IMG/VR virus record: IMGVR_UViG_3300043427_003273
Span: 36,902-100,901 of that record
Source: a virus
Reading direction: 5' to 3' (one strand)
DNA length: 64,000 nt
In this document: piece by piece, positions 29,241 through 53,974 of the stretch
Position numbering within the stretch: the stretch's first letter is position 1
How the letters are laid out: each line of letters begins with the position of its first letter
The notes under the pieces: model-generated
Database searches by the model: none
Told to the model about the DNA's origin: nothing
The model's input: the letters and a program-made list of their open reading frames with translations, nothing else
Translations under genes and position numbers: made by a program

Positions 29241-32200
29241 TTAATTATTTGAAGTATAATTTTCATACTTTAATGGATTTATCCTCACAATTGATGGAGA
29301 AGAAGATATTCCAGATTCTCCGTTAATATATGCATCGAATGATATATTTTTAGTCCTTTTCAATTCAGACATTCTTCCCCAAGAGAAATCTCCAAAATAT
29401 TGGCCAAAAGTATATCCAGCTCCAATATTGCCAATAAATCCCCCACTAGGTACATCCAAATTATTATAACTTTCAACTGGGGTTACAACTCTAACAACTT
29501 CAGTCCTTCCAAATCCTACTACCAATCCAGGAACTTCTGTTCTTGCTATTGAAACCGAAGATACTTGGTATACTCCATCAATATATCTATCGCCCTCAAA
29601 TATTCTTATTGTTCCATCGTCTACATTTACAGAATTTATTCCAAAACCAGTCACTGCAGATCCAACATTTGATTTGCTGACTTTAAAATAATATCCAGGT
29701 TGAATTTGAGATTCTGTTATTGGAGATCCTAAAGTTTCATCTCTTAAATATGAATTCTCAGTAATATATAATTCAAATACAAAATTTTTATCAAACCCAT
29801 CTGGTGTTGGATTTTCAAAAATGTGAACTGCGCCAGAAGATGATTCCGAATTTGGATTTTCATCTCTTTCTGCACCAACTAATAAAGTACTGCCAGTTTT
29901 ATCTAAACAAACAAATCTACCAAATCCATCTGCAGCATCATTGGAATATTGTCCCTGCAAAATTGCAATTTCAATAAATGCATTTCCAGATCTATTAAAG
30001 ACATATGATCTACCTGAGGATTCATCTTGATACGCCCCAACTAAAAGAACTCTACCATTTGAACTTATATCAACAGAAGATCCAAAATAATCCCCACCAT
30101 CAATGGAAAGTGATCCTGTTACTTTTGCAGTTAATGAATAGTTTCCATTATTAATATCATAAATATAAACTACTCCAGAAGACAATGGATTTCCCACTTC
30201 TTCACCATTAATAGATCCAACTACGATAGTATTTTTCTCGTTTGCAATTGCAACTGAATTTCCAAAATCACTTCCAGAATCTGTTAGAGTTTCTGGTCTT
30301 AAAATATCAGTTTGCTGATAAGATCCGCCAATAAGTTTAAATACATAGGCTCTTCCGACATTATCAGTTCCAGCTTTTTCAGATCCAACAACTATAATAC
30401 TTCCGTCTGAATTTGTATCGACAGAACTTCCAAAATAATCGAGAGTTTGATCAGAAACACTGCCAAATAAAACTTGAAATTCTACAAATGTATTATCTTC
30501 TTGCTTTTTAAAGACATAAGTAATTCCAGATGCTGCTGGATTTCCTGCCGTTTTGCATCCAGCAACTAAGGTGCTTCCATCCTCACTCATTGCGAGAGAC
30601 CAAGAAACTTGTGCTGTACCAGTAGTCAAACTTCCCAATAAAGTACTAATTCCAATAAATGATAATCCACTACGTTCATAAACATATATTACACCGCCAT
30701 TGTTTACACTGTTAATATCTAATGTTTCATCTTGTCTAGCAGCAACTGCAATAATACCACCGTTCCCACTCATTGCAACAGACCATCCAAAATAGTCATC
30801 TTGATTTGAAGCATAAGTTCCAGTTAAAACTCCAACCTGAGTTATGGTACTTCCAGATTTATCATAAACATAGGCTAAACCGTAATCTATATTTGGATCT
30901 TCATTTTGCAATTCATCCCTATATGAACCAACTACAAATGTAGATCCATCACTTGATACTGCCATTCTACATCCATAAAAATCACTTAAATTTGATGCAT
31001 ATAATCCAGTAACAACTCCAACTGAAGAAATTGGTAACAAAGTTGAAGTAGTTCCAATACCAGTAACCCATCCAAAATCTCCTTCATATAAAACATCTTG
31101 AATTATTTCATACTTAATTGTCGGCGGTCCAATAAAAACAACTGGTTGGGTTCCTGATGTACTGTAACCATATCCAGGATTTGTTAATACTATAGAGTCT
31201 ACAGAACCATTTGAATCTATAGTACAAATAGCTTGAGCCCTTTCATTGGTGGTAGTTCCTATTCCAGTAAAGTTTGGATATGAAATTGAAATATCAGGTG
31301 CTTGGGAATACCCAGACCCTCCAGATTGTAAAGAAATGTTTGAGATTCTTAAATCTGAACCCAAACTAATAGTAGCATTTGCTTGAGTTTCTTGATCATT
31401 TGAAATAATTATAATATCATCCTGAGGATCTTTATTAACCCCAATGTTTTCATATTCATCGTCACTATCAAAAAATGTTTTTAAAGACTCAACGAAAATT
31501 GATTCAGTCGATCCAATCCCAACACTTTTTATAATTTGAGTTTTGGGATATATTTCTGGTTCGTAAGGCACTCTAGATTTTCCAATCACAACGCCATCAA
31601 CAACTTTATCAACCAATTGCTTACACCATTTGACAGATCTTAATAAATTAATATCTCCACTTACTCCAGGAGAAGAATATGAGTTTGTCTCTATAATATC
31701 AGTAGATCTTATATCAGTTACAGTTCTTGAATTTTGTTGCAATGAAAAATCTTGACTATTGAGTGTTACAAGATCGCCAATTTTTATTGTTTCTAAAATA
31801 TCAACTAGTCTAGTATCAACCTCAGTTGTTCCATAATAAAATACAATGACGCATTTATCTCCAGAGTTCGGAGCTTCTGAAAATGTAAATGTACTTCCAC
31901 CACTAAAAGTGTAAGATTGATTTGGAACTTGGTATATGTCATTAATAAAAATGAGCAAATTATATTCCAAGTTTAAAGTTGATCCTGGTCTTGCTCTTAA
32001 TGTAGTTTGAGTTCCTCCCAGTCTAAAAGGAAATTCTTTTCTCTTGCCATTAAATAATCTACTAATATTATCAAATACAACTAAATCACCAAATACATAT
32101 CCAGAAAATTCATCCGTAAAAGTTTGATCAACTATGATTTCAAATTCTTCAAATGTCGATCCTATTGATAAATCATAAACATATGCAACGCCAGATGTTC

Positions 32201-35200
32201 CTATTCCTGTTGTTGTTAATTCATCATATTGAGATCCGACAATAAAACTATTTTTATTTCCAGAAATTGCAACAGAAGTTGCAAAATTGTCATTTAAATT
32301 ATAAGCATAAGTTCCTGTTATAATCCCAACATTAGCATAATCGGATCCTAGATAATTTTTAGTCTTTCTTTCATAGACATAAGCAACTCCAGAAGAACTT
32401 GGTAAATTTATTGATTCATCATTTATGGATCCTATCACAACAACTTCACCATCATCACTAATCGATAGTGATGATCCAAAATCATCTCCAGATTGATTTG
32501 AATAAGTTCCCTGAAGTACTTGGATTAAATAATAAGATCCTAATATTTTTTCAAAAATATAAACCAATCCAGTTATATTTCCTCCAATTATAGAAGTATC
32601 ATCTTTTGCGCCAACCGCAATAATATTTCCATTTTTACTTACGTCTACTGAATAACCAAAATTATCTTGATTTTTTAATTCACTTAATTTTGGTGATGTT
32701 AATATTCCAACTTGATTTATTGACGCTCCAACCTTTTCAAATATATAAACTAATCCAAAATTATCAGATTGAACTCCAGTATCTTCATCTTCAGGAGCAC
32801 CAACTACAATATGACTTCCATCAGGACTAATGGCAACTGAAAAACCAAATCTATCTTCAAGAGAAGCATTTGATCCTTGTAATATTGCTATTTCATTAAA
32901 TGTTGGGCCAGCAACTTTTTCAAACACATATACAGAACCAACCCTTGCCGAAACTAAATTTGGATCTCTTGGCGATCCGACAACTATAAGATTCCCATCT
33001 GATGTAATATCAACATCCCATCCAAAATTGGAAAGTGATAATCCACTTAAACCTCCAGTAGAATTAGATCCTGTTAAAACTCCAACTTGGCTAAAAGTTG
33101 GACCAGAAGACCTTTCAAAAACATAGGCAGTTCCATAATTATTCACTATCCCCACTTTTTCATCTGAAGGAGCACCTACAACAATTAAGTTGCCAGTTCC
33201 GCTCATTGCAACAGAATAACCAAAATTATCATTAAGATCGTATGAATATTCTCCTGTTAAAATTCCAACCTGACTAAAACTATTACCAACTCTATCAAAT
33301 ACATATGCAACTCCAGAAGCAGTTCCAATTCCTAAGGAATTTAAAGCACTTCCTTCTCCAAATGGAGATCCTACAACCATCGTAGATCCATTTGAACTTA
33401 TTCCTACTGAAAAACCAAATCTATCATCATTTGAAGCGATTGATCCAGTAAATATGCCAATTGCTGTACTTATTCCATTAATTTGATTTGTAGAAAATGT
33501 TTGTACTCCTGTAACACCTCCTGTTGGTATCGTTAATATTTCACCTTGACCATAGGAGTATCCAGAAGATAATAATTCAAACTCCTTAATTTTTCCATCA
33601 TTTCCAATTCTAACATTTGCTTTTGCATAACTACCTATTCCTTGAACGGAATTTGAACTATAAACCAAACTTAAATTCTGATATGATAATGGATCATCAA
33701 AATTTAAATCCAAATCATCAAATCGATATATTTTAATCTCAGTCTTTGCTGACTTTAAAGATGGCAAAGGATCATTAATTTTTATTTGGCTTAGTTCTTC
33801 ATCTACAGATATAATTTTACTTAAAATAACATCTTCATCTATTGATACATAATCTTTATAGGTATCAATTCCAGCAACATTTCCCATGTTTAAAATTGTT
33901 GATCCAGATAAAGATCCTCCAGTTAAATTATAAGAAGTAAATAAATTAAATTGAGTAAATCCTATTCCAGTGTTTGTTATTTCAACATTTGTCACATGTC
34001 CATTTCTTATGCTTGAAACACCAATATGAATTGGACCTTTTTTTCTGGTGACATTTTTAACTAATCCACCACCAATGTATAGGTGATTTTGAGGTGCTTC
34101 ACCAACATCAAGAACAAAAGTATCTAATCCTATAGTTTCTAAAACTTCAAATTCATATCCAAATTTCCCAGATGGTAAAAGTATTGTAGCTAGTACAAAA
34201 GAACCAGATGAATTTGTTATTGTATAAGGTGGTGGAGGAATTAGAATTTCATTTACATCTACCTCAAATCCATTTGTAGATACATCAAAAGAAATTGGGG
34301 TATTGATAACAGTAAATCTCTTTTTATCTAATAAAGTTCCAGTATCATTAAATAAAACTAGTTCATTATTAAATAAAGTATTTTCTACATCTCCATCAGT
34401 TGTAAATGTTACAATTCCCGTTGAATATCTAGTTTGATTGATCGAATATTTTATTGGATTTTCTATAGATGGATTTGTACCTTCAAATGTATGTGGATAT
34501 ACATCTCCTGGGTCACTAAATCCAACATAAACTTCTACTGTGGTTGAAGTTACATCTAAAATTTCTAATAATTTATTGTATGCGGGATCTGTTTCTCTTG
34601 GATAATATGTTGTAATTGCTGGATTAAGAGTGCAAGAAAAACCTAATGATTCTGGCTCAATAAAAATATAATCACCAAAAGATACTTTAACTGGATTCGG
34701 TTTATCTGTATTAACACCAACAAAGGTATGCTGAGAAAGATCAGTACTTGTTCCTACGTTAACTTCAATAGTAGTTGATCCAATTGAAGTAATTGTTAAC
34801 AATGAATCACTTGCAGGATCTGTCAATCTTGGATAATACGTTACTGAAGAATTACCATCTAAAGTGCAAGTAAATCCAAGAGATTTTGATGAAAGAAGTA
34901 TTTTTTCTCCGATTTGTAGCGGATGTGTTGTATTTGTAATTGATAATGTAGATATTCCACTTGCAGGATCATAATCTGCATATAAAACATTGTAAGAATC
35001 ACTTGCAGAAAGTGAATGATTTCCTATTGTTAAAGTTGCTATTCCACTCGCAGGATCATAAGTTGCGGAGGTAAAGTTAATTGAATCAGATGTTAAAGTC
35101 GAATCTCCAACTCTTTCAAATGTATGTAAAGATGTATCAGATCCTCCAGATCCTACGTTCACTTCTATTTTAGTTGCAGTTGAAGTAATAACTCCTACTG

Positions 35201-37544
35201 TAAAGTTATAAGCAGGATCTCCAATCCTTGGATAATATGTTGTAGTTGAATTGCCATCAAGAGTGCAACTAAATCCCAAAGATTCTGGTTCTATAAAGAC
35301 CCTATCTCCAGTGGTCAACGAATGAATTCCTATGGTTAATGTTGAAATTCCAGATGTTGGGTCATAAGTTGCATTAGTGACACTAAAAAATTTATTATTA
35401 ACTACTATTGAATTTATTCCGACTCTTTGATTAAATGATCCATACGATTCTCCAAATTTTCCTCCACTGTCACAAGTATACTTAAAATCCCTAAGATCTA
35501 CTAATTCACCTTTAGCAACACTAAATCCTGGAGCAGTAATTGTTACAATACCTGTGGTATTTGTATAATCTGCTTCCGTTGCTGCAAATTGCTTTTCTCC
35601 GTTTAAGTATACATCAACAACACCAACATTTGGCTGAGTTACCGTAATATACGCAATATCTCCTATATTTGTTTGAATAATTCCTGGCGTAAATGTTTTA
35701 ATTGTTACGGCAGTATTATTTACGAATGATCCAGATGTTGGATTATCCAAAACAAGAATTTTATTAACAGCATCGACAGAAATAATCTTTTCATTTGTCG
35801 CCACTGATCCCAAAGTTAAATAAAAATCTTCAGAATTTGTATCAATTCCAACGTTAGTTCTTGGATCTATAATATTGGATACTTTTATTCTATCTGTAGA
35901 TGCCAAAGAAGTTTGGGTTGTATTTGTAGAATATAAGAAATTAAAACTACTGGAATCAAAAACTTCGGACCAAGCATCCAAACCAGATGAAATCTCCACA
36001 TAAGTATTTCCGACAGAAACTATTTCGGTGTATCCGTTATTTTCTATGTAGTTATTTCCTACACTATCTCTGACTGACAATGTGCATTTTGCAGTTGGAG
36101 AACCGTTTAAAAAATATTCTAATTTTTTAAATAATCCATTTTGATTATCAAGGAAAAACCTACCAGAAAATGCCCCAGGAATTCCAGCAGCAGTTGTTGG
36201 TTCATAGGTAGGAGATAAAATTCTTGTTTCTAATGTATAAGTTTCTGGAGATCTATATCCAGAACCAGTATATCCTATAAAAACAGATTCTACTGTTCCA
36301 GAATTGGAAATTTTTGCAGTTCCTCCTGCGGCAACTAATGGCTGATATCCAAATCCCTCATTAGTGCCAACAGATACAATGATTCCACCTCTAGGAATAG
36401 AAGCAGTGTTTATATCTTCTGGACTTGAATTTTTTTCCCCAGTAAAAGAAATAGTAGTAATTCCAGAACTTTCACCCAACCCATAATCAATAAAATCTGG
36501 TGTTTGAAAAACATTATTAATTAATATTAAAGCATTGCCTGTAGAAAATCCAGATACATTTTGCCCCTGTTGCTTTAATACCGCTTGAGTTGATATACCA
36601 AGAAATTGATTTGAAATATCATCTAATAAATAATTTCTATCATAAGGTCCGATATTACTATCTTCAAATCCAGATCTTAAAAATACTCTACCATCAAAAG
36701 TTGAAAATGTCTCAATACCGACATAATCTCTATCTAAAGGATTTTTTCTCTCAAGATCTGTAGTTGGAGATTTGTCAAATGGAGCAACTGGAAAATATAT
36801 TATATTGTCAACTATTTTATAGTTTCCAGTTAATTTTACTACAGCATCGCCAGCAGAATGCGATGCTAACCCAGTACCCAATAAAGGTCTTCTAACAATC
36901 ATTGATGTTGTATTTCCAACACCAAGCAAATTAATCCTCATTATTTCATTATTAACTCTAATAATATCACCATTAAAAAATGAAGTAATTCCTGCTACAA
37001 TTAAAAGATCACTACCAGAAGATAGATCTTCCAATAATTGTGTTTTAATTTCAGTATCAATTGCTGGAGTTTGTATTACGTTATCTATTGTAATTAAACT
37101 CCTTGTATTTTGCTTTTCCCCAATAAATTTATGAAACGTTCCAAACCCAACGGAGGTTAAATCAAAAACTTCTGGTATTCTTTTTAATGCCCTGTCTTTG
37201 GTCGCAGCAAGTTGAATAAATCTATCATTTAATACGACAGCATAAACTGTTTGCGGCAATTTTCTTATTGAATTTCCAACTCCAACAATAGTTGTTGTTG
37301 CTATTCCAATTGCAGCGTCAGAATCGTTAAAAAAATCTTCATATTGATAACTAATTTCTTCTCCTGTTCTGAAAAAGTGATTTGGGATTAATATTGTATC
37401 ATCAATAACATTAACAATATCATAACTATTTCCATCAAAAAACCTTTCAAAAATAGGATCGCCTTTATGCCTCAGTTCAGCACTAAGCTGAACATCAAAT
37501 CTTCTTCCAACGTAAAAACCAGAACCGCTATTGATGATTGGCAT
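29241..37544 (-). CDS. Giant virion structural protein 2 (2,767 aa) with two seven-bladed FG-GAP-like propellers
   Basis: It begins with a beta-rich structural N-terminus (SGSGFYVGRRFDVQLSAELR). Residues ~740-1,030 hold three ~70-aa repeats with the pattern SLGFxCTLD, TYYPR, DPA and HTF. From ~1,355 to ~1,795 there are seven units of about 60 aa with the FG-GAP-like pattern DxFGxSVxISxDGxxIVVG followed by AYVFE. A second set of seven units runs ~2,170 to ~2,580. Each set is the right number for one integrin-type beta-propeller. GxGY units are near residue 2,090-2,140. It sits between gp6/giant 3 and gp8, so it is probably part of the baseplate periphery or a fibre; receptor or glycan binding by the propellers is inference. 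Confidence 0.88.
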   Translation of the reverse strand: MPIINSGSGFYVGRRFDVQLSAELRHKGDPIFERFFDGNSYDIVNVIDDTILIPNHFFRTGEEISYQYEDFFNDSDAAIGIATTTIVGVGNSIRKLPQTVYAVVLNDRFIQLAATKDRALKRIPEVFDLTSVGFGTFHKFIGEKQNTRSLITIDNVIQTPAIDTEIKTQLLEDLSSGSDLLIVAGITSFFNGDIIRVNNEIMRINLLGVGNTTSMIVRRPLLGTGLASHSAGDAVVKLTGNYKIVDNIIYFPVAPFDKSPTTDLERKNPLDRDYVGIETFSTFDGRVFLRSGFEDSNIGPYDRNYLLDDISNQFLGISTQAVLKQQGQNVSGFSTGNALILINNVFQTPDFIDYGLGESSGITTISFTGEKNSSPEDINTASIPRGGIIVSVGTNEGFGYQPLVAAGGTAKISNSGTVESVFIGYTGSGYRSPETYTLETRILSPTYEPTTAAGIPGAFSGRFFLDNQNGLFKKLEYFLNGSPTAKCTLSVRDSVGNNYIENNGYTEIVSVGNTYVEISSGLDAWSEVFDSSSFNFLYSTNTTQTSLASTDRIKVSNIIDPRTNVGIDTNSEDFYLTLGSVATNEKIISVDAVNKILVLDNPTSGSFVNNTAVTIKTFTPGIIQTNIGDIAYITVTQPNVGVVDVYLNGEKQFAATEADYTNTTGIVTITAPGFSVAKGELVDLRDFKYTCDSGGKFGESYGSFNQRVGINSIVVNNKFFSVTNATYDPTSGISTLTIGIHSLTTGDRVFIEPESLGFSCTLDGNSTTTYYPRIGDPAYNFTVGVITSTATKIEVNVGSGGSDTSLHTFERVGDSTLTSDSINFTSATYDPASGIATLTIGNHSLSASDSYNVLYADYDPASGISTLSITNTTHPLQIGEKILLSSKSLGFTCTLDGNSSVTYYPRLTDPASDSLLTITSIGSTTIEVNVGTSTDLSQHTFVGVNTDKPNPVKVSFGDYIFIEPESLGFSCTLNPAITTYYPRETDPAYNKLLEILDVTSTTVEVYVGFSDPGDVYPHTFEGTNPSIENPIKYSINQTRYSTGIVTFTTDGDVENTLFNNELVLFNDTGTLLDKKRFTVINTPISFDVSTNGFEVDVNEILIPPPPYTITNSSGSFVLATILLPSGKFGYEFEVLETIGLDTFVLDVGEAPQNHLYIGGGLVKNVTRKKGPIHIGVSSIRNGHVTNVEITNTGIGFTQFNLFTSYNLTGGSLSGSTILNMGNVAGIDTYKDYVSIDEDVILSKIISVDEELSQIKINDPLPSLKSAKTEIKIYRFDDLDLNFDDPLSYQNLSLVYSSNSVQGIGSYAKANVRIGNDGKIKEFELLSSGYSYGQGEILTIPTGGVTGVQTFSTNQINGISTAIGIFTGSIASNDDRFGFSVGISSNGSTMVVGSPFGEGSALNSLGIGTASGVAYVFDRVGNSFSQVGILTGEYSYDLNDNFGYSVAMSGTGNLIVVGAPSDEKVGIVNNYGTAYVFERSSGPTFSQVGVLTGSNSTGGLSGLSLSNFGWDVDITSDGNLIVVGSPRDPNLVSARVGSVYVFEKVAGPTFNEIAILQGSNASLEDRFGFSVAISPDGSHIVVGAPEDEDTGVQSDNFGLVYIFEKVGASINQVGILTSPKLSELKNQDNFGYSVDVSKNGNIIAVGAKDDTSIIGGNITGLVYIFEKILGSYYLIQVLQGTYSNQSGDDFGSSLSISDDGEVVVIGSINDESINLPSSSGVAYVYERKTKNYLGSDYANVGIITGTYAYNLNDNFATSVAISGNKNSFIVGSQYDELTTTGIGTSGVAYVYDLSIGSTFEEFEIIVDQTFTDEFSGYVFGDLVVFDNISRLFNGKRKEFPFRLGGTQTTLRARPGSTLNLEYNLLIFINDIYQVPNQSYTFSGGSTFTFSEAPNSGDKCVIVFYYGTTEVDTRLVDILETIKIGDLVTLNSQDFSLQQNSRTVTDIRSTDIIETNSYSSPGVSGDINLLRSVKWCKQLVDKVVDGVVIGKSRVPYEPEIYPKTQIIKSVGIGSTESIFVESLKTFFDSDDEYENIGVNKDPQDDIIIISNDQETQANATISLGSDLRISNISLQSGGSGYSQAPDISISYPNFTGIGTTTNERAQAICTIDSNGSVDSIVLTNPGYGYSTSGTQPVVFIGPPTIKYEIIQDVLYEGDFGWVTGIGTTSTLLPISSVGVVTGLYASNLSDFYGCRMAVSSDGSTFVVGSYRDELQNEDPNIDYGLAYVYDKSGSTITQVGVLTGTYASNQDDYFGWSVAMSGNGGIIAVAARQDETLDINSVNNGGVIYVYERSGLSFIGISTLLGSLTTGTAQVSWSLAMSEDGSTLVAGCKTAGNPAASGITYVFKKQEDNTFVEFQVLFGSVSDQTLDYFGSSVDTNSDGSIIVVGSEKAGTDNVGRAYVFKLIGGSYQQTDILRPETLTDSGSDFGNSVAIANEKNTIVVGSINGEEVGNPLSSGVVYIYDINNGNYSLTAKVTGSLSIDGGDYFGSSVDISSNGRVLLVGAYQDESSGRSYVFNRSGNAFIEIAILQGQYSNDAADGFGRFVCLDKTGSTLLVGAERDENPNSESSSGAVHIFENPTPDGFDKNFVFELYITENSYLRDETLGSPITESQIQPGYYFKVSKSNVGSAVTGFGINSVNVDDGTIRIFEGDRYIDGVYQVSSVSIARTEVPGLVVGFGRTEVVRVVTPVESYNNLDVPSGGFIGNIGAGYTFGQYFGDFSWGRMSELKRTKNISFDAYINGESGISSSPSIVRINPLKYENYTSNN

Positions 37545-37561: not shown

Positions 37562-40500
37562 TTAGAGACGACCTACATTAACTTGGAATGCATTTATAGT
37601 ATATTCTACCAATGGAGATGGGGTGAACAGTAATTGAGTATTTCCACCGAGCAAACGACTTGAAAATTCTCCGACTCCCACTGTACCAATTCCAGCTGAT
37701 GGGCTAATTTTAACAACCCCATACTCACTAAGATATGAATTTCTAGTATTTGAAGTTAGTTGCATTTCAGATGCTTTATATTCTTTATTTATTGGTCTTG
37801 TTGACCTTGTGCTTGAGAATCCAAGTAAAACTTCCTCATCATTAACTGTGTCATTAATAATGAGAGCAAATGGTTGATTCGATTCAAACTTCCAAATATT
37901 AGATCCAGATCCAAGATCTGCTGCAGTTCCATCCATAAGTGTTCCCCAAATCCCAAATCCAGTAGTTCCATCTCTTTGAGTAATTTTTGGATCATTAAAA
38001 GATCCACCACTTAAATTGTGTGATTCTCCCAATACCCAAGAAGATCCATTCCAATAAGAAACATTAACAAATGTATTTGGATAAGGTGCGGCGATCACAT
38101 AATCAGATAATGTGTTTCCCCAAGAATAAGTATCTGATAGATTATCCAATAAAATTCCCTGTAAAGCATCACTTCCAGCACCGTCACTTTGTCTAATTGC
38201 AATAATAGGAGATGCATCATAAACTCCAGATGTAGTTATTCCAGCAGATGCTCCAGATGGGAAAGTATTATATGCCGTCCTCTGCCTTTCAGTCGATGGA
38301 ACTATTAATGAATTTGGATAATACTTATAATTTATTGTTCCTATTCCAGTTATGCATGGTGATAGAATTGTTTTATCATTTCCAGAAGTTCCACCTGGAC
38401 CCAAAACTGTCATTATAACTGGCAAATCGGAATCGAAAAATACCCAACTACCTAAAGATGATGTTGTAAGAATTCCAGATTGGTATGAATTCAATGTTAT
38501 TGATGTTGATGCAATTCCAGCAATTCCATTTGGAGAATTATCATAAAGCCTAATCTCAGTGCTACCAAAAGGTGCATAAGCAAAGAATGTTGTTATTCCT
38601 GGAGTAAATCCTCTATCCGCTACGAAATGTCCAAAAGTTGTTGATGCATAAGATACTGGAGCAATAGAATGTTGAGATCCTTCATTCATAAAGTGAACTC
38701 CTTTTGATCCAAAGTATCGATATCCAGATGTAATTCCTACGGATCCACTTTCTGGATCAGTAGATGAAGTTGTTAAAATGCTAGTCACATAACCTTCTGG
38801 AGTAATTTCAAAAATTTCAGTTTCTGGGAATATTGCCGAATATGTTACAGACGCATCTTCAAAAGCATACCAATCAGAAATTCCATGATCTCTTGCTCCA
38901 ACATTATATGGAGTTACTAATCCCGTTTGGATACCAACAACGTTTACGAACAAATAAGAACATTTATATTGCTGTGAAAATTGAGTTGCTAAAACTGGTT
39001 GAGGAATTTCTGTGGATATTCCAGAAATTGTAAACGAAGTAACTTGTCCCGTTTCAAAAGATAATGCTCCTGTAGTTGATGATATATCTTCATTTGAAAC
39101 TGAAGTAGTTATTGTTTTTATATCATAGTCCTGAGTTAAATTTTCATATGGAGTCATAATTACATTAAGAGATGATCCATCAGAACTCATCTCACATGTG
39201 TATGAACATATTCCTAATACTGATTCGTTATTTAAATCTGAGGTCGTTAATTCTCCAAATTCAGACAAAACAGTATTGCCAAAATCATCATGCATAACTG
39301 TTATTTCATTAAGTTCAAAATAATCTCTATTTACTGAAGATACTTGTAATAATACTTTACTAGATCTAAAAGTAGATCCTATTCCAACTACTGTAGTTCC
39401 TACTCCTTGGGATGTCCCCGAGGTTAAAATTCCAATTTGATTATAAACATAAGAAATATCACCAAATCCCAATTCTTCAATATCGGTTGGATCATCTGTC
39501 AACTCAAAAACAACAAAATCAATAATAAAATTATTAACTTCATCTTTTGCGGGATAAAACTGCAATACTTGCTGCTCTCCAACAATTATGGATTCAAAAT
39601 ATGCCATATCATAATTTGTCTCAACTCTTCCATATTGGCCAACGTAGACATTTTCATCATCATGAAGAGTTGTAAGTATTTGCATTTGTCTGTCATCAGT
39701 AAATCTCCTATCTTGGATATAGAAGAATGTTTTTTTAGATCTAATTTCTGTCGAATCTGATCTTGCAACTACTGAAAAATTAGTTTCTCTTGGTAAAGCA
39801 TTGAAATTTTTACTAATGTCATCTATAGGAAGAACTCTATTTGATATTGATTCAATATAATCTTGTAAAATTCTTGAATTAAAAATAATTTCATTTGATT
39901 TTAAGGGATTTCCAAAAGTTACTTCCCTAGCCAAGTCAAAATCATAAACACAATTAACACTAACTTCTGATATAATATCACTTATGCCAAACGAAATTGC
40001 TTCTTGAGATGTTGATATTCCAGAATAGGATATTGGAAGTGATTCTAGTTCTAATTCTGAAAATCTCTTGAATCCTGCAGTATGGTTTAAAGAACCAACA
40101 TCATCATTCCATTTATCTATAGAAACCTTACTCTTCAACGCGTATGAGAAGTATTGATAATAGTCATTATCATGTATTCTTTGAAGATCAAAGTTTAACT
40201 TGCCAGTATCTAATCCCCATCCAGTTGTAACTATTGAACTATCTGCAATATTATATCCAGCATCAAAATCTATTTTATTCAGTAAAATTGCTTTTGTTTT
40301 TGAAGTTTGGCCAATAATTGTATCGCCGACATTAAAGACTATAGTTTCTGCAATTTTCAAATAGTCATTAGCACTATCCCATTGCTCAACTATACCTATT
40401 GAAGTTCCATCTTCAGTAATTAATTCTTCATCTTGAATAAAGTTATTTTTTTCAAGCACTGTAGAATATATTGGAAAATATTTTACTGGAACAACTCTAG

Positions 40501-43500
40501 CTGCTTCCGATAATATTTCATCAACTTTATATGAATCACTATTTTCTGGTTCTAAAACATCTTCATCAACATATTCATCAAAATCTAAAGTAATTGAGGC
40601 ACCAGATCCTCCTATGTTTGGATCTATTTTTACAACCTTATAAAATGAATATCCATTTGAATTTGAATTAAATCCTTTACTGGTTCCACCATTTGTCTCT
40701 TCTCTAGTGATTACATCTTCAATAAAAACAAGATCTCCAAGTTCAAAAGGAAAATCCAAAATGGAACTATATTCTGTTTTCAAAAATACTTGTATTGTTG
40801 GTAAATTTGAAATGGGTAAACTCTGAACTCTAGTTGAAGATGATGATAATAAGTTTGAGTATAATGAATCTATATCTGGATCATCAAGATTTAACTGTGA
40901 AAAATCATTCGCCAATTGAACTTCTTCTGGTTCAGAATTTGTGTTTAGGGTTAAAATTATTGGACTTCCCTGATTTAATAAAATTGGAATTCCATTGCTA
41001 TTATCTACTGGAACTAACCTTGGAACAATATTTGATAAGTTCTTTGTATTACGAACTATAGTAACAAAATTATCACCTAAATTATAAGAAAGAATTAAAT
41101 CTGTAATTATTTTTTTTGTTTTTGCGTCTATTACATCAATATTTGGAGCGGTTAGATAGTTTATTCCATTAGATACAATTGTTATTCTAGCAATTGAATA
41201 CAAAGGCTCCACTTTATAGATCGTCGGTAGTTTAGCAATTGCTCTAATACTTAAATCTGAAGGATAATCAAAACCAATATCTTTAATGTTTACAGATTTT
41301 ATTTGACCTATATTTGTACTGTTTGCAGTAATAATAGATCCTGTTCCACTTAAAGATTCTATCGTAGTTTTTATAGGTAGTCTGTAAAAATATCTTCCTT
41401 TATTTTTTACGGATGCTTTTACAATAGATCCTGATGCATTTTTGGAAGACGTATTATACTTTATTAAAGAATTTTCATCATCATAAAATTCTGATTCTGG
41501 ATCTCTTGGTATTTGATACTTAAATTCAGAAAACTCAAATGGAGGTTGAGTGGAGTCTCTCTCTATAGGATCAAAAATTTTATATTTTCCATCATATTTA
41601 CTCAAAGTGATCGTTATCTTATTATTATTTGATTGCTCAGAATCTATAAAAATTCCTATTTTTTCTAAAGGATTTCCATTAATATTAAGAGGAGTTAATT
41701 TATAAAATAAAGTTGAAGGCGCATCATCAGAAATTTTTAACACTAATTTTGCATTAGTTGTTCCTATTGTGCCAATTTTTGACACATCAAATATATTTGT
41801 TTTCCCAGAAGAAATATATTTATGATTGAAATTTGAATCTTGATATAAGTCAAAACTAAAAGATGATATTCTTTGAGTAGATGAACCTTGAGTAAAAGAT
41901 AATGTATTACTAGATATATCAAATATTATAGTCTGTCCCTTTATTACTTGAATTTCTGGATTTATTTGATAAAACTTTCCATCTGTAGATGAATTTAATG
42001 GTAAAAATTTTGGAAACTCTTGTCCAGACTCAAATAAAGAATTACATAGTCCAAAATTATTTCTATCTGTCACAACTACGTAATAAATTTCATTATCCTG
42101 CAAACCACTTATCGGATTATCCGATTTATACAAAACTTTATCTCCAGTTTTGTATTGGTGATTAGTTATCGTAAATAAATTTTCACCTATATTTACATCA
42201 TTATCCTCAAACTCTTTTGGATTTGCTACTAAAATTCTAGCTTGATCATTGTATTCAATTACAACAGTTTTTGTATTTAACGGATTTATATTAATATCAA
42301 TTATATCCCCACTCAATAAACCATGACTTGATGCGGTAGAAACTGTAACTATACTTTGAGATACCTTTGCATTTAAAATATTTTGTTTTAAAGTTGTAAA
42401 TTTAGAATTTCCATTTCCCGCAACAAAACATAATAATGGATCTTGATTTGCTCCAACTGAAAATAACGATCCAGTAGAACCAAACCCAACTCTAGTTGTG
42501 GAAATTCCAATCAAATCATCAGTAATTTTTATAGCATAAACAGTTGAATTTTGAGGTATTATGAATGAATTTATTGTATCGTTTGATTTTGATACAAGCA
42601 AACTACCATTTGTACTAAATTTCAATGGATCATTTGTATTAAATCCATGTTCTTTCAAATAAATTGAACGTGTTGGTATTGATAATGAAGTGATTCCAGA
42701 TTTTGGATAATTAAAATAAATTGAACTCGTTATACCAGTTCCAAATTTTGTTCCGAATCCAACAACTTCAGAAGCATCAAAATAATATTCATAATTGACA
42801 TTGAAATTATAATATGTTTGAATTCCCAAATTTGCGTTGAACTTTCTTGATTTTTCAGTAAGCCTTGTTCCAGATGGATATGTTGTTAGTCCAACGTATC
42901 CATTATTACTTCTAGATACCCTTATTACATTGTTGTCTTTATTGATATTTAATATTTTTATTTCTTCTCTAGAATTAGAAATTGATCCTGGATCAACAAT
43001 ATAGTAAATATCGTTTTCTCTAATTGTTGGGTAGGTCAAATCACCAGAAACTTCAAAGTATGTAACTATTCCTGTTTGCGATTGTGGTTTTACTGTTTTC
43101 GTTAAAAATAAATTATTATTAGAAAAATTTATATCTTTAAAAACAACTCTTTCTATGGGAGTTGATATTGAAACTATATCACCAGTTGTATAACCATGTG
43201 GATTATTAGTAAACCCTATTAATTCAGATCCGTTTCCAAATTTTCCAAATTCAACATTTTCAAACGTCGATCTTGCAACACTAACAGATTTAACATCTAC
43301 TCCCTGTATTTCTGAAACTTCTGCTGTTGCATTTTGTCCAATAATGTCTCCGTTTTCAAACTTAATTTTGTCACCTACTTTATAATTTTGACCACCCACA
43401 ACAATATCAACAAACTCAATTTCACCATAACTTGCATACTTTATTTGACTTATGGGATCTTTAATCTTATTAGGAACTAAAAGATATTGATATCTACTAT

Positions 43501-46500
43501 TTTTTTTAGTATTAAAGTTATATGGATAAGTATTTCTATACCATCCAGTTTTATTAATATCTATTAAATTTTGATTTGATTTTGCATCAAAATTAAATTC
43601 AATAGGTTTAGATTTATACTTATTTCCTATAATATATGGGAACGTTGAGGGGTATCCAAATCCATCCTGGAGTATTTGTGTAGTATCTATTGTGCAAAAA
43701 TATGCATAGGTTCCATTTGGAAATTCTGGTGTTTTGCAATATCTTCCATTCGATTCATCCAAATCGCCATTATTGATGACTTTATATTCATAGTCTTCTA
43801 TAAAAAATCCAATCGGATAAAGAGATGTTGGAGGACCATCAATTCTTTGAAGACCTTCAAATAAACTATATCCAGATTTCAATGCTTTTACTGCACCAGA
43901 CTCTGCATTTTCATAACCATATGGACCATATATTGGATTTCCATCATATGCCCATCCCACAATAGGAGAATGTCTTTTTTCCAAACTCCTATCAGCTTCT
44001 ATATCAACTACGGTTGAACCATTTTCAAAATAATCGTTGTATAGTATTTCTCTAAGTCTATCTGGCAAATAAATATGAGTATATTGAAGCCCAAATTCCG
44101 AATTTAATCCAGAATAAACAAATCCACCATCATTAGTTTCACGATTTGTTAATCTATATCTATTTAAAAGATTTATTCTCCATGATGTTATATTTGTTGA
44201 TATTTTTACTCCTTCCCCCCTATCAATAATGTCAATTGTTGTATTTTCTTGTTTATAATTTAAACCACCATAAATCACCTTTATCTCTACAATTTTTCCA
44301 TTTTTTAAAATTGGAGTTAAAACTGCACCATTTCCATCACCTCTAACAATTACATCTGGAATAGATACATAATCTTTTCCTTGGTTAGTTACCAATACTT
44401 CTACTATTGAACCATCTTTCGATGATATTATTGGCAATAATTGTCCATTTTTTCCCTTTATAACATTTAATGCAGGCTGTTTCGCATAGTTTAAAATATC
44501 TGGAGATCCATATCCAGATCCATTCTTAGAAACAAAAATTCCATCAACCTCACCTCTAAATACTGGTTGTAATTTGGCATTCAAATCTTGCCCAGATGAA
44601 GTAGAGACTCCGATAAATCCCTCAACAGAAACAATAATTGGCTCATAGTTAAAATAGTGGGTTCCTGTACCTACACTAGTTAAATTTAAATATTGCTTTG
44701 TTTGATATAAAAAGTCTTGGGGTGCTTCAAAATATGACTGATCTTTATAAATTTCTGATATCTTAATATTATTATCATCTATTTTAGTTACATAGTATGA
44801 TGTATTTGCTTGAATACCTCCAATAAGATTTCCAGAACTATAATGAACAATTAAATCACCACTAGAGTATCCATGTTTTGGTATTGTTATAACATTTGTT
44901 ACCAAATTTACGTTACTTGGAATAGTGGATGTTTTTCTATTTTTATATCCACTGCCAGGGGATATAACATTAATTGCTCCAACTTTAGATTTATTTTTTG
45001 AAGATTTTAAATAATGTAAACCAGTAGAATATGCTTTAATATCTACTGTTGATATTCCCGCAAATGCATCTTCTTTGGATTTGTATAATTTTACTGTAGT
45101 TCCATCTTCAACATAAACAATATATCTACTTCTATTTTCAAGTCCATAAATTGTTGTAGAAATTCCACTAATATAAATAACTTCCTCATAATTTTCAAAA
45201 TTGTGATATGTAGCAAATCCAATTGTATCATTCGCAATATTCATAGATCCAACTTGTGGATAAAATGGTGCTTGATACTCAAATGATTCCATAATAGGCT
45301 CAACTAGAGCACCATTTCCACCACCACCTTTTATGCTAACTTTTGGTATTCCAATATAATTAAATCCTTGATAAATTATATTTACTTTTTCCAGTTTTCC
45401 ATTTATTGATGGGTAAATTTCACAACCAGAACCTAAAGTACCTAATGTTAGAAAATCTTCAGATATTCTAACATCTATACCATCTTCTCCACCCAATGAT
45501 AATTGTGTTCCACCACTTCCACCAACAGTAACTAATAATCCATTTATTCTTACAGTATTTCCTTCTGTTTGATTAATATAAAGTTTATTTTTTCCCAATA
45601 ACAGATATCTTTCTCCCAATTTGATCTCTTCACCACCAATGCCACCATAAGTAACTACATTTCCACCAATAGATCCAAATTTTATTGGTTGATCATTGTA
45701 AATAAGAGGTATTGAACTTTTTGCATTGTATTTTACAATAGCTCCCCCAGAGTCTTCAATTAAAAACTCTGGGGGACTCATAACATCATAACCAAATCCA
45801 GAAGATACTACATCTACAGATTTTATAGGGCCATAAAATATACTATTTTGAGATTTATAATTTAATATTTCTACTCCATTGAGAAAAATGCCAGTTGCTC
45901 CAGGTAAAGTATCATAAGTAACAGTATCTTGTATGGGGTCGGAAATTTTTCTAATGAGATTTTGTGGCCCGATAAGTTGGGGTTTAAAATTATCGACGGA
46001 TTTAAAATCTATTTTTGAAAACGAATAATATTGAATAGCACAATCTGCTACTGTTATTGTAGGAACTGTTGATGGTGGAGTGATTCTGGGACTAACATAT
46101 TTTTCATTTAGAATATTTGATCTACTACTTGCCAATTTAATCCCATAAGGATCTCCTTCAGATCTAAATTCCTTAATGTAATAAATTCCATCTGGAAATG
46201 GTGAGTTTCTTGGATCTTGGGATCTAAAAACAACCTCGTCTCCAGTAAAGAATCCATGATTTATTATTATTAAATTATTAGTGGCATCTAAAGAATAAGT
46301 TGTAAAATATGCGTAGTCAATTGATCCGTCCGAATATAATTTATCGGATTGTCCATTATTAACAAACTCCTTTCCAAAGAAAAATTTTCCATTTACTGAT
46401 CCATCTCTAATATCCAAAGGAGATGGTCCACCAGAAATATCAGAATATGAAGGTAATGATGGAGAAGAAACATATAAAGATTTTTCTTTATCGAGGTAAA

Positions 46501-48547
46501 CATTTTGAACGTTTGAATTGTAGATATTTAAATCTGGATAATTAATGAATAATCCTTTAGATAAAAGTCTTGTTATAGAATATCTTTCTAATTGAGATAC
46601 TCTTCCAAATTGGTCTGGAGTTCCGATGGGAGCATCAAATCTTGCAACAATACTATTTTTTGAAGGGACAGATTTTACGACCAAAAAATTATCAGGAACC
46701 TGATCTACATAAAACGTATCAGACTTATGAAAATTATGCTCATCCAGAAAAGTCAGTCTGTAAGAATTATCTAAAATATCTTCTACAAAGGCAGTTTCTA
46801 TATCATATGTAACTGGAATATTATAAATCCAATTATTATCTTTTTTTCTATTGGATTCTTCACCTAAAGACCTAACTCTAATTTTATTGCCAGACTCATA
46901 AAGGAATGTTTGCTCATTCTGCTCAAAATTAGATAAAACGCCAGATATTCTAACCTTTATAATTTGATCCCTATTCTCTCCAACAAATCCATATGCATAA
47001 GTATCTGTAAATACTTCACTATTTGGATATATTGTATCTCTAATATTATCAATAATAGAACCTATGGTCTTACATCCCAAAAATTGATTAAGTGTTTTTG
47101 ATTGGTACGATATATTATAAATCAATTCGGTTTGAGTATCTGGATCTGTCGTATGAACAACAAGATTTCCCGAATTGGGGAATGAAACTGTACTATCAAC
47201 TTCTATTGTTGTCGAATTTGGAAAAATAGTTTCGATAGAATAAGTTTTTGGGTGAATAGAAAAACTACTAAAAAGAGTTCCTCTAAAATTAATATCTCTT
47301 TCGTATCCATCATCAATACTAATTACATAATAAGTTCTGCCACTTCTTTCTATTCTTTCTACAGCAGATATAGTTCCTCTTGCATTCCCAATAAATCCAA
47401 CGTTGTCTTGAAATAAAGTTCTATTTAAAAGATCCTCGGGGTTTCCTTCAATTCCTTGGACTACTAAATTCCTTAAAACTTTATACTGAGCATCTGAAGG
47501 TTCAAGTAAAAAATCTCTTGGAGTAATTACTGATACCTTTTCTCCGTACAAAACTGAAAATAAAATTTTAAATGAATTCTCCGTTCCCTTCGACGAATAA
47601 AAATCTTTTGATTGCTTTATAAAAACAGATTCATTTAAATCTGGATTTAAATCTCTATTTTCAAATCCAGGTAGAAATTGATATTTTACTTTCTGTAAGA
47701 ATTTTTTTAAAAAGATCGAATTTAAATTTATTACTTCGGATCTTATAAAATGATCTTCTGCTAAAGTGTCTTCAAAAATTAACTGATCTTCAGTATCTTT
47801 TCCCAATGATCTAGTTCCACTAAACCCTCTAACACAATTTAATAATTTAATTCCAATATATTCTTCACCATCTACATTAATAGTTGAAACATTTTCATCT
47901 ACATCTTTGAATAATATTATTTCGTTATTAATTTGAATCAATCCATATTTTATCGGCAACGATTTTTTATTATTTGCCTTTGAATATAGTACAATTTCAT
48001 TCTGATCAGATTTAATTACACTTTTAATGATTAATGAAATTCCATTAGAGTTAATTAAATTTTTGTCATTTATCCCAAGGGTACTATCATTTAAAAAGAA
48101 TTCATACTCTGGATTGTTAGAATCTAAAGTAATTGAAAATCTTCTTCCATTAAATTCATAAGTTTCAAAATCAATTAAATCACTTAGTTCTGAAGAAAAT
48201 TCTTGATATGGAACAATGTCAACAAAATCACCATTAATTAAATTATGTGGTGTCTTAGTCTTTACTTTTATGACAGATTCATTATTTAATATTGTTGTTT
48301 GATTTTTAATTATTGATTCTACAACATAAGAATCATTATAAAGATAAAAAATATCTGCAATATTACTAAGAGAGTCTAATTTAATATAATCATTTATGTT
48401 GGATATAATATCAGATGGTCCAAAATTAGTTTCCGTATACCTATAATATTCCTTTAAAAACTCAGGCAATAGAGGATATTCTACTCTTACGAATTCGGGA
48501 AGTTGGTACTCTACAATAGAGCTTACTTTTACATTCGTTTTTTTCAT
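37562..48547 (-). CDS. Giant virion structural protein 3 (3,661 aa) with YHYH-like domain
   Basis: The largest gene of the window. The N-terminus (EYQLPEFVRVEYPLLPEFLK then EYYRYTETNFGPSD) is a conserved opening of large cyanophage structural proteins. Around residues 1,530-1,625 lies a YHYH-like domain: SPIVGWAYDGNPIYGPYGY, then LYPIGFF, LDESNG and GTYAYFCTID, where the usual Y-H-Y-H is read as Y-A-Y-F. Many FAT-like and GxGY beta repeats fill the rest. It lies directly after gp6, the position of gp7 in T4, so it could be the gp7 counterpart, though no homology is evident by eye. Probably a baseplate wedge or fibre protein. Confidence 0.87.
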   Translation of the reverse strand: MKKTNVKVSSIVEYQLPEFVRVEYPLLPEFLKEYYRYTETNFGPSDIISNINDYIKLDSLSNIADIFYLYNDSYVVESIIKNQTTILNNESVIKVKTKTPHNLINGDFVDIVPYQEFSSELSDLIDFETYEFNGRRFSITLDSNNPEYEFFLNDSTLGINDKNLINSNGISLIIKSVIKSDQNEIVLYSKANNKKSLPIKYGLIQINNEIILFKDVDENVSTINVDGEEYIGIKLLNCVRGFSGTRSLGKDTEDQLIFEDTLAEDHFIRSEVINLNSIFLKKFLQKVKYQFLPGFENRDLNPDLNESVFIKQSKDFYSSKGTENSFKILFSVLYGEKVSVITPRDFLLEPSDAQYKVLRNLVVQGIEGNPEDLLNRTLFQDNVGFIGNARGTISAVERIERSGRTYYVISIDDGYERDINFRGTLFSSFSIHPKTYSIETIFPNSTTIEVDSTVSFPNSGNLVVHTTDPDTQTELIYNISYQSKTLNQFLGCKTIGSIIDNIRDTIYPNSEVFTDTYAYGFVGENRDQIIKVRISGVLSNFEQNEQTFLYESGNKIRVRSLGEESNRKKDNNWIYNIPVTYDIETAFVEDILDNSYRLTFLDEHNFHKSDTFYVDQVPDNFLVVKSVPSKNSIVARFDAPIGTPDQFGRVSQLERYSITRLLSKGLFINYPDLNIYNSNVQNVYLDKEKSLYVSSPSLPSYSDISGGPSPLDIRDGSVNGKFFFGKEFVNNGQSDKLYSDGSIDYAYFTTYSLDATNNLIIINHGFFTGDEVVFRSQDPRNSPFPDGIYYIKEFRSEGDPYGIKLASSRSNILNEKYVSPRITPPSTVPTITVADCAIQYYSFSKIDFKSVDNFKPQLIGPQNLIRKISDPIQDTVTYDTLPGATGIFLNGVEILNYKSQNSIFYGPIKSVDVVSSGFGYDVMSPPEFLIEDSGGAIVKYNAKSSIPLIYNDQPIKFGSIGGNVVTYGGIGGEEIKLGERYLLLGKNKLYINQTEGNTVRINGLLVTVGGSGGTQLSLGGEDGIDVRISEDFLTLGTLGSGCEIYPSINGKLEKVNIIYQGFNYIGIPKVSIKGGGGNGALVEPIMESFEYQAPFYPQVGSMNIANDTIGFATYHNFENYEEVIYISGISTTIYGLENRSRYIVYVEDGTTVKLYKSKEDAFAGISTVDIKAYSTGLHYLKSSKNKSKVGAINVISPGSGYKNRKTSTIPSNVNLVTNVITIPKHGYSSGDLIVHYSSGNLIGGIQANTSYYVTKIDDNNIKISEIYKDQSYFEAPQDFLYQTKQYLNLTSVGTGTHYFNYEPIIVSVEGFIGVSTSSGQDLNAKLQPVFRGEVDGIFVSKNGSGYGSPDILNYAKQPALNVIKGKNGQLLPIISSKDGSIVEVLVTNQGKDYVSIPDVIVRGDGNGAVLTPILKNGKIVEIKVIYGGLNYKQENTTIDIIDRGEGVKISTNITSWRINLLNRYRLTNRETNDGGFVYSGLNSEFGLQYTHIYLPDRLREILYNDYFENGSTVVDIEADRSLEKRHSPIVGWAYDGNPIYGPYGYENAESGAVKALKSGYSLFEGLQRIDGPPTSLYPIGFFIEDYEYKVINNGDLDESNGRYCKTPEFPNGTYAYFCTIDTTQILQDGFGYPSTFPYIIGNKYKSKPIEFNFDAKSNQNLIDINKTGWYRNTYPYNFNTKKNSRYQYLLVPNKIKDPISQIKYASYGEIEFVDIVVGGQNYKVGDKIKFENGDIIGQNATAEVSEIQGVDVKSVSVARSTFENVEFGKFGNGSELIGFTNNPHGYTTGDIVSISTPIERVVFKDINFSNNNLFLTKTVKPQSQTGIVTYFEVSGDLTYPTIRENDIYYIVDPGSISNSREEIKILNINKDNNVIRVSRSNNGYVGLTTYPSGTRLTEKSRKFNANLGIQTYYNFNVNYEYYFDASEVVGFGTKFGTGITSSIYFNYPKSGITSLSIPTRSIYLKEHGFNTNDPLKFSTNGSLLVSKSNDTINSFIIPQNSTVYAIKITDDLIGISTTRVGFGSTGSLFSVGANQDPLLCFVAGNGNSKFTTLKQNILNAKVSQSIVTVSTASSHGLLSGDIIDININPLNTKTVVIEYNDQARILVANPKEFEDNDVNIGENLFTITNHQYKTGDKVLYKSDNPISGLQDNEIYYVVVTDRNNFGLCNSLFESGQEFPKFLPLNSSTDGKFYQINPEIQVIKGQTIIFDISSNTLSFTQGSSTQRISSFSFDLYQDSNFNHKYISSGKTNIFDVSKIGTIGTTNAKLVLKISDDAPSTLFYKLTPLNINGNPLEKIGIFIDSEQSNNNKITITLSKYDGKYKIFDPIERDSTQPPFEFSEFKYQIPRDPESEFYDDENSLIKYNTSSKNASGSIVKASVKNKGRYFYRLPIKTTIESLSGTGSIITANSTNIGQIKSVNIKDIGFDYPSDLSIRAIAKLPTIYKVEPLYSIARITIVSNGINYLTAPNIDVIDAKTKKIITDLILSYNLGDNFVTIVRNTKNLSNIVPRLVPVDNSNGIPILLNQGSPIILTLNTNSEPEEVQLANDFSQLNLDDPDIDSLYSNLLSSSSTRVQSLPISNLPTIQVFLKTEYSSILDFPFELGDLVFIEDVITREETNGGTSKGFNSNSNGYSFYKVVKIDPNIGGSGASITLDFDEYVDEDVLEPENSDSYKVDEILSEAARVVPVKYFPIYSTVLEKNNFIQDEELITEDGTSIGIVEQWDSANDYLKIAETIVFNVGDTIIGQTSKTKAILLNKIDFDAGYNIADSSIVTTGWGLDTGKLNFDLQRIHDNDYYQYFSYALKSKVSIDKWNDDVGSLNHTAGFKRFSELELESLPISYSGISTSQEAISFGISDIISEVSVNCVYDFDLAREVTFGNPLKSNEIIFNSRILQDYIESISNRVLPIDDISKNFNALPRETNFSVVARSDSTEIRSKKTFFYIQDRRFTDDRQMQILTTLHDDENVYVGQYGRVETNYDMAYFESIIVGEQQVLQFYPAKDEVNNFIIDFVVFELTDDPTDIEELGFGDISYVYNQIGILTSGTSQGVGTTVVGIGSTFRSSKVLLQVSSVNRDYFELNEITVMHDDFGNTVLSEFGELTTSDLNNESVLGICSYTCEMSSDGSSLNVIMTPYENLTQDYDIKTITTSVSNEDISSTTGALSFETGQVTSFTISGISTEIPQPVLATQFSQQYKCSYLFVNVVGIQTGLVTPYNVGARDHGISDWYAFEDASVTYSAIFPETEIFEITPEGYVTSILTTSSTDPESGSVGITSGYRYFGSKGVHFMNEGSQHSIAPVSYASTTFGHFVADRGFTPGITTFFAYAPFGSTEIRLYDNSPNGIAGIASTSITLNSYQSGILTTSSLGSWVFFDSDLPVIMTVLGPGGTSGNDKTILSPCITGIGTINYKYYPNSLIVPSTERQRTAYNTFPSGASAGITTSGVYDASPIIAIRQSDGAGSDALQGILLDNLSDTYSWGNTLSDYVIAAPYPNTFVNVSYWNGSSWVLGESHNLSGGSFNDPKITQRDGTTGFGIWGTLMDGTAADLGSGSNIWKFESNQPFALIINDTVNDEEVLLGFSSTRSTRPINKEYKASEMQLTSNTRNSYLSEYGVVKISPSAGIGTVGVGEFSSRLLGGNTQLLFTPSPLVEYTINAFQVNVGRL

Positions 48548-51891: not shown

Positions 51892-52043
51892 TAGTCAATT
51901 GCCTCCAATTCAAGAAATTCTGGATCAAACTCTCCTTCATTATAAAACTTTTCTGCCAGTTCGTCAAGGACTTCTGTAGATTGTTCATAAGAAAGGTCTT
52001 TGTGAATAATTCGACCCTTATACAGAATATTAAACTTTCCCAT
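51891..52043 (-). CDS. Small hypothetical protein (50 aa)
   Basis: A 50-aa acidic protein beginning MGKFNILYKGRIIHKDLSYE. It has a short beta hairpin, then a helix (STEVLDELAEKFYNEGE), and the end PEFLELEAID. The pattern is similar to the 65-aa MSETKIYHIYLKGK protein nearby: a strand, a KGK/KGR turn, then L-S/P-E-E. Small proteins of this kind recur in cyanophages with no known function. Stop and next start overlap as TAATG. Confidence 0.72.
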   Translation of the reverse strand: MGKFNILYKGRIIHKDLSYEQSTEVLDELAEKFYNEGEFDPEFLELEAID

Positions 52044-52049
52044 AAGATA

Positions 52050-52931
52050 TCAGATTACTCGGGTCTTTTCGTGTCCAACACGGATACGAGGATCACACCA
52101 GATCTCAAATCCTGCTTCTTTTGCATCGAGACAGAACGAAACGTCTTCTCCGCACATATCTTGTACTGCACCAGACTCAAAGACTTGCATCTTAGGTGCA
52201 AACCAAGGATACTTCATCTCCTCATGCTCAAATACACCATTCTTAATCATGACCCAACCAAATCCAGTGTAATCAACTGTAAATGGTTTCTTACGTTTGC
52301 TGATGCCATCAACCATCTCATGATTCATTACACCACCGTTATTACGGAAGTCATCTTCATCCAACCAGTGAGCAACAGAGGTGGTACGACCATCTTCTGT
52401 GCAATACCATCCAGCAGCAATGGGATGATCTTTTTCTGGATTTGCTTTGAGACTACGAGAAATTACATTTCCATTCTGATCAACTTTCTCTTCAAATGTA
52501 GCTCCTTGATTTCCTTCTTCATCTTCAGTATAAATTACTGCATCTTCGGGGAATGCAAGATCACAGAGTTGCCAGAATTTTTCCGTATTGAATACGATGT
52601 CACTGTCAATCCAGAGTTGGTAATCATAAGGAAGTCGTCCATCCCAGGGAATCTGATCAGGTCCTCGGAGAACATTTGCACCTAAACACTTGCAACGTGC
52701 AAAATTAACCATTGATGAGTAATCTTGAGAAATCTGAATACTCATCTGATTTTGTACAAGATCGAAACAGAGTTGTACAAAAGATTTGAGAAATTGGAAC
52801 GAGCACCCTCTGCCAGGCAAGCAGAAAACAATCGTCTTACCTCTCATGCGCTCTTTGATTTTTGCGTAGTCCCATTCCTCACCCTTTTCAACCTTAGGTG
52901 GGTTTGCTTTTACTGTGAATCCTTTTGCCAT
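52050..52931 (-). CDS. Glycosyltransferase-like protein (GT-A type)
   Basis: A 293-aa protein. The metal/nucleotide-sugar binding DxD motif is seen in YDYQLWIDSDIVFN (DSD at 109-111), preceded by a KTIVFCLPGRGCSFQFLKSF nucleotide-fold start and a DYSSMVNFARCKCLGANVL helix. The C-terminal half has FTVDYTGFGWVMIKNGVFE and GEDVSFCLDAKEAGFEIW, which resemble acceptor/catalytic segments of GT2-type enzymes (ED and following His in VGHEK). Likely modifies a phage or host surface glycan; the substrate is unknown. Such genes are common in cyanomyoviruses. Confidence 0.82.
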   Translation of the reverse strand: MAKGFTVKANPPKVEKGEEWDYAKIKERMRGKTIVFCLPGRGCSFQFLKSFVQLCFDLVQNQMSIQISQDYSSMVNFARCKCLGANVLRGPDQIPWDGRLPYDYQLWIDSDIVFNTEKFWQLCDLAFPEDAVIYTEDEEGNQGATFEEKVDQNGNVISRSLKANPEKDHPIAAGWYCTEDGRTTSVAHWLDEDDFRNNGGVMNHEMVDGISKRKKPFTVDYTGFGWVMIKNGVFEHEEMKYPWFAPKMQVFESGAVQDMCGEDVSFCLDAKEAGFEIWCDPRIRVGHEKTRVI

Positions 52932-52984
52932 AATAGTATCAATGTTCAGTTAATATTTTAAAGTATTTTAATATAACAGTCAAG

Positions 52985-53182
52985 TCAATGAGAAGATTCT
53001 AATGTTATTTTCTTATTGACTACAAGTTCCTCATAAGATAAATCAGCAGTCTCATAATTACCTCCGAGAAGTTCTGTGAGGTAATTTAATGTATCCCAAT
53101 TTTTTTGAAATTCTTCTTCGGGCAAACTATGATAAACACACTTACCTTTTAAGTAGATATGATAAATCTTCGTTTCACTCAT
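52985..53182 (-). CDS. Small conserved cyanophage protein (65 aa)
   Basis: A 65-aa protein from MSETKIYHIYLKGKCVYHSL. The strand with a KGK turn, the LPEEEF helix cap and the WDTLNYLTELLG helix make a compact alpha/beta unit seen in many cyanophage small proteins. I start it at the ATG at 53182; an ATG seven codons upstream lacks a clear ribosome binding site. A CATAAATA late-promoter-like octamer is 27 nt upstream. Function unknown. Confidence 0.78.
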   Translation of the reverse strand: MSETKIYHIYLKGKCVYHSLPEEEFQKNWDTLNYLTELLGGNYETADLSYEELVVNKKITLESSH

Positions 53183-53207
53183 GAATCTTATTCGGTCTCT
53201 CACTGGG

Positions 53208-53438: not shown

Positions 53439-53545
53439 TTTGAAAATAATATAGAGATTGTTATATATCGACCGATTATCAAGATTTGTAGGTTAGAAGG
53501 ACCCATCAATTTTAGCTACGGGCGGGACCGACCGTAATCGGCACA

Positions 53546-53604: not shown

Positions 53605-53621
53605 GGGCAATGTGTGCCCCC
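53603..53621 (-). terminator. GC hairpin after the 90-aa gene
   Basis: GGGGGCA / TGCCCCC stem with a 5-nt loop, 11 nt past the stop. There is no T run, so it is terminator-like but could also protect an RNA 3' end. Confidence 0.6.
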
Positions 53622-53631
53622 TAAGTATACC

Positions 53632-53967: not shown

Positions 53968-53974
53968 GAAGGGG

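Follow-up and report, generated by a model that had tools for sequence, protein, structure and literature searches.

Genomic Context of the Split gp7

The window analyzed here, a 64,000-nt stretch within a 100.9-kb IMG/VR virus record, contains T4-like genes for the capsid, portal, sheath, terminase, UvsY, and neck. Because of these structural genes and a major capsid protein that shares 79% identity with its counterpart in Synechococcus phage S-SCSM1, the virus is, judged by its sequence, most likely a T4-like cyanophage of the Kyanoviridae. Neither psbA nor psbD, which could hint at the host, was found in the partial virus record. The structural cluster contains phrog_45 twice, in tail-tube-like genes at positions 2144-2716 and 8646-9353 of the window.

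The genes of interest are arranged in the order gp25, gp6, an ORF of 3661 amino acids (37562-48547, minus strand), P0001 of 2767 amino acids (29241-37544, minus strand), and gp8. The upstream ORF, spanning positions 89-2822 of phrog_2885, represents the N-terminal part of a split cyanophage giant gp7 and P0001 (phrog_2885, E 1e-235) the C-terminal part, which carries both propellers described below. A YHYH domain is located at residues 1523-1626 of the upstream ORF. In the phages S-SM2, Bellamy, and S-SCSM1, the counterparts of the two ORFs share the same scaffold and the same place between gp6 and gp8, but form one ORF of ca. 4100 amino acids that is annotated as a baseplate wedge or virion structural protein. 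The split is kept in all seven clade members examined (7/7), with the start of the second ORF a short distance past the stop codon of the first.

The phrog_2885 match, the BLASTP matches to S-SM2 and Bellamy, and the synteny with gp6 and gp8 all agree in placing P0001 in the cyanophage giant gp7 family. P0001 was also considered as a direct homologue of T4 gp7, and this was rejected as the similarity search found none; T4 gp7 matched weakly the profile region spanned by the upstream ORF, outside P0001. P0001 is therefore called gp7 on the strength of the cyanophage annotation and the gene order. An assembly artefact was rejected as well, as an identical gene is present in contig L009 and the same layout in seven further relatives.

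The scaffold of P0001 is made up of residues 1-431 (36252-37544, minus strand; 48% identical to residues 2973-3398 of Bellamy gp7), residues 1282-1346 in front of propeller 1 (33507-33701, minus strand; aligning with Bellamy and S-SM2 gp7), residues 1796-2167 between the propellers (31044-32159, minus strand; about 41% identical to Bellamy and S-SM2 gp7), and the C-terminal residues 2588-2767 (29244-29783, minus strand; about 35% identical to residues 3897-4065 of Bellamy gp7). Residues 432-1281 (33702-36251) form a second large clade-specific gp7 expansion of about 850 residues, with internal repeats such as YDPTSGISTLTIG; the counterpart comprises about 55 residues in many relatives and 250-1008 in others.

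FG-GAP_2 Units and Predicted Fold of the Propellers

The Pfam family PF14312 (FG-GAP_2) matched P0001 with an E-value of 4e-64 in 13 stretches, arranged 7 + 6 along the protein, of which 12 were above the per-unit curated cut-off and one below. When a profile was made from the units of P0001 itself, 14 units were recovered, 7 + 7, with the FG positions 1376, 1441, 1507, 1566, 1629, 1689, and 1754 in set 1 and 2190, 2252, 2314, 2371, 2427, 2487, and 2541 in set 2. The unit missed by Pfam is the third of propeller 2 (residues 2314-2370; 30435-30605, minus strand), in which the unit alignment shows FG replaced by SW; this degenerate unit was recognized by the own-unit profile and is predicted to have four strands. 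Among 500 shuffled versions of P0001, only two domain matches in total were obtained at i-E < 0.001, compared to 14 in the real protein, ruling out chance repeats as the source of the units. The original prediction of exactly seven units in each of two sets was thus borne out by the own-unit profile and the unit alignment, and its residue ranges and window coordinates were correct, the units covering residues ~1361-1795 and ~2175-2580. Propeller 1 occupies residues 1347-1795 (32160-33506, minus strand) at insertion site 1, and propeller 2 residues 2168-2587 (29784-31043, minus strand) at site 2.

The structure prediction proposed at the outset was carried out with AlphaFold2 for residues 1282-2040 and 2030-2767, using alignments of 31 and 26 sequences, respectively. 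The mean pLDDT values of the two models were 74 and 75, and higher in most propeller strands. Each propeller was assigned 28 strands (7 × 4). In both models, blades 1-6 have four strands each and blade 7 three of its own, and a free strand is found just N-terminal of blade 1, at residues ~1363-1365 in propeller 1 and ~2173-2178 in propeller 2. In the models this strand is placed to complete blade 7, in what would be the usual ring-closing arrangement, and we infer that both propellers are likely to close in space.

In Foldseek, integrin alpha was the top PDB match for both models (E 2e-19 and 4e-14), seven-bladed WD40 proteins were also among the best PDB matches, and FG-GAP proteins of giant viruses and phages matched in a viral structure library. 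A PDB search with the P0001 sequence gave nothing useful. The FG and G-A-P positions of P0001 correspond to those of integrin alpha, but the identity is only about 14-19% and the calcium loops are missing. The search for calcium-binding DxDxDG loops, also proposed originally, found none anywhere in P0001, and its propellers have a short turn at the place where integrins bind calcium; a calcium-binding propeller of the integrin type was therefore rejected. In its main point, two seven-bladed propellers of integrin-type fold in one phage structural protein, here associated with the baseplate wedge, the original prediction is supported by the units and the predicted fold.

Seven units per ring are not remarkable as such, since seven-unit FG-GAP_2 rings are common and bacterial proteins carry chains of 7, 14, or 21 units. 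These bacterial proteins belong to the same repeat family and likewise have seven units per ring or chains of 14 and 21, but they are about 29-37% identical to the P0001 propellers and are not set in a baseplate protein.

Insertion Sites and Distribution

In the alignment with Bellamy and S-SM2 gp7, which are propeller-free, residues ~1346 and 1796 of P0001 are adjacent, and so are residues 2167 and 2588. IMG/VR was scanned with the scaffold and the best 80 of 304 loci were taken, two of which were the own or near-own copies, leaving 78. In these 78 loci (from the best 80 of 304), S-SM2, and Bellamy, site 1 consists of 5-7 residues and site 2 of 17-18, and no FG-GAP units were found at either site. 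The distant partial contig L199 has 72 residues at site 1 and 13 at site 2. The loci were sampled by sequence pattern and include many near-copies, so the proportions do not equal frequencies in nature.

Among the gp7 proteins compared, the propeller inserts are confined to a clade of eight members. Five of the eight (the virus studied here, L018, L020, L021, and L196) have 7 + 7 units, and three (L019, L193, and L195) have 7 + 0, with an empty site 2 of 17-18 residues. All 13 propellers of the clade (13/13) contain seven units, two set-2 units of L021 scoring weakly, and the identity among propellers 2 drops to 34-36%. As far as the aligned sequences tell, each propeller is a clean and whole insertion into a loop of the gp7 scaffold, and overall the sequence, the predicted fold, and the insertion of both propellers are well supported.

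FG-GAP_2 repeats and phage propellers as such are already known. What is new is that a cyanophage gp7, itself split, carries a pair of clean insertions, that the sites are naturally empty in relatives, and that the propellers are kin to one from a fibre cluster. No relevant paper on FG-GAP in the tails of phages or in cyanophages turned up in the literature library that was searched.

Evolutionary History of the Propellers

In a tree built from the gp7 scaffold parts, with the propellers left out, the eight clade members come out together, with full support and a long branch leading to them. Within this group, L193 and L195 tentatively diverge first (supports of 63 and 76). In the propeller tree, propellers 1 (99) and propellers 2 (99) form separate groups that join each other (83). 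The blades of the two propellers are slightly most alike when compared in register (0.36 vs. 0.32-0.34), in keeping with a duplication of the whole ring. If the split between propellers 1 and 2 predates the clade, propeller 2 would have been lost at least twice; a separate arrival of the propellers from fibres is a possible alternative.

The closest propeller sequences outside the clade are those of L022, with seven full units, and L023, a partial copy truncated where its contig ends. They are 42-48% identical to the clade propellers and sit next to them in the tree (99), apart from the bacterial FG-GAP_2 proteins. A recent bacterial donor was rejected, and no donor is named, because the bacterial proteins fall outside the phage group. 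The L022 propeller is flanked by collagen-like repeats instead of the gp7 scaffold, and its neighbourhood contains collagen-like and tail-fibre ORFs, one of them sharing 58-69% identity with proteins of P-SSM2 and S-SRM01. These relationships suggest that fibre and baseplate proteins exchange domains. At L022:8908-11792, the propeller ORF runs into the collagen-like repeats in a shifted frame, reflecting either assembly indels or real frameshifts.

FG-GAP_2 units also adjoin a Laminin_G domain in a structural protein of 7022 amino acids of S-MbCM6. In another phage contig (L207:8437-10350), a Mu Gp48 baseplate domain is joined to a seven-unit FG-GAP_2 propeller. The near-identical viral contigs L024, L025, and L026 encode an ORF of 813 amino acids with 14 distant FG-GAP-like units at a spacing of about 57 residues, possibly two rings in tandem.

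Selection and Possible Function

On balance, we regard the propellers as probable accessory binding heads that are akin to the propellers of tail fibres and would be displayed on the baseplate for adsorption. In this reading, each of two loops in the C-terminal part of gp7 has received a complete seven-bladed FG-GAP_2 propeller. In the models, each insert begins with an outer strand, and its last strand is the third of blade 7. The ends of the insert are therefore expected to be adjacent, and for this reason the propeller could hang from the loop with the scaffold undisturbed. We further infer that the propellers would be surface-exposed, that several copies per virion would lie around the baseplate, and that in a binding role they would help to hold the particle on the host surface, their ligands possibly being glycans contacted by the variable propeller face.

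The conservation of seven units in 13/13 propellers despite the low identity among propellers 2, the emptiness of both sites in 80 relatives (78 from the best 80 of 304 and two isolates), and the location of the outside kin L022 in a tail-fibre cluster all speak for binding heads, as do the dispensability of propeller 2 in L019, L193, and L195 and the Laminin_G (S-MbCM6) and Mu Gp48 (L207) domains beside FG-GAP_2 units. Variability points in the same direction, the B-C and D-A loops being the most variable unit positions in both propellers. In integrin-type propellers these loops form the upper, ligand-binding face. This variation is only weak evidence for binding, because varying loops are found in most propellers. 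Precedents are offered by the phi11 receptor-binding protein, with a five-bladed beta-propeller, and phiKZ gp131C, with a seven-bladed one of unproven function (PMC4901313). As in P0001, these beta-propellers belong to phage receptor-binding or baseplate-rim proteins, but neither is given there as an inserted FG-GAP_2 pair, and that of phi11 has five blades instead of seven (PMC4901313).

On the other hand, the dN/dS values, computed against an 84%-identical relative, are well below 1 in both propellers (0.13 for propeller 1 and 0.21 for propeller 2), and the propeller-free C-terminal part of the scaffold evolves just as fast (0.20; N part 0.06, middle part 0.07). In addition, T4 gp7 offers no positional template for the propeller-bearing part. 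A structural role would likewise be compatible with the presence of propeller 1 in 8/8 clade members, at one fixed site and under purifying selection (dN/dS 0.13). The chief rival explanation, which we consider rather unlikely, is accordingly that the propellers serve as docking platforms, either stiffening or cross-linking the baseplate or holding fibre proteins in place, with no host contact. Propellers are common protein docking platforms, and these are housed in a protein of a baseplate-wedge family. The 80 relatives (78 from the best 80 of 304 and the two isolates), however, build their baseplates without propellers, propeller 2 is missing in three clade members, and the kin outside the clade is located in a fibre cluster.

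The low dN/dS of both propellers and the seven units in 13/13 copies also argue against near-neutral loop insertions that are merely tolerated and have no important function. Clean insertion in loops, the patchiness of propeller 2 across the clade, and the other large variable insert of P0001 (residues 432-1281) would be as expected from such insertions, to which we nevertheless attach hardly any probability. An enzymatic role, in which the propellers would cut or modify the host surface polysaccharide, appears improbable too, if by a trace less so. Carbohydrate-acting propellers are often enzymes and depolymerases are frequent on phage tails, but the best structural matches were the non-enzymatic integrin and WD40 propellers, and Pfam found only FG-GAP_2 and no glycosidase family.

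A further and more tentative idea is that the two loop sites, fixed in position, could be sockets that accept interchangeable seven-bladed binding heads, of a kind also used by tail fibres, and thus provide a second, baseplate-borne set of modules for host recognition. Heads would then be gained or lost singly in this cyanophage clade. How T4-like cyanophages recognize their hosts is poorly understood. A natural comparison set is available in relatives that carry both propellers, one, or none at defined sites, and the role of baseplate-borne propellers is therefore directly testable.

Other Features of the Window

At positions 52000-64000 of the window, the GC content climbs from roughly 0.30 to values of 0.40-0.57, coding appears sparse, and short ORFs occur on either strand. 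Within the first 6 kb of this region, parts match related contigs at 69-85% DNA identity, and this portion is therefore not a simple chimera. A GP88-family gene (54660-55421) and a DUF7717 gene (62430-62915) are located in the region.
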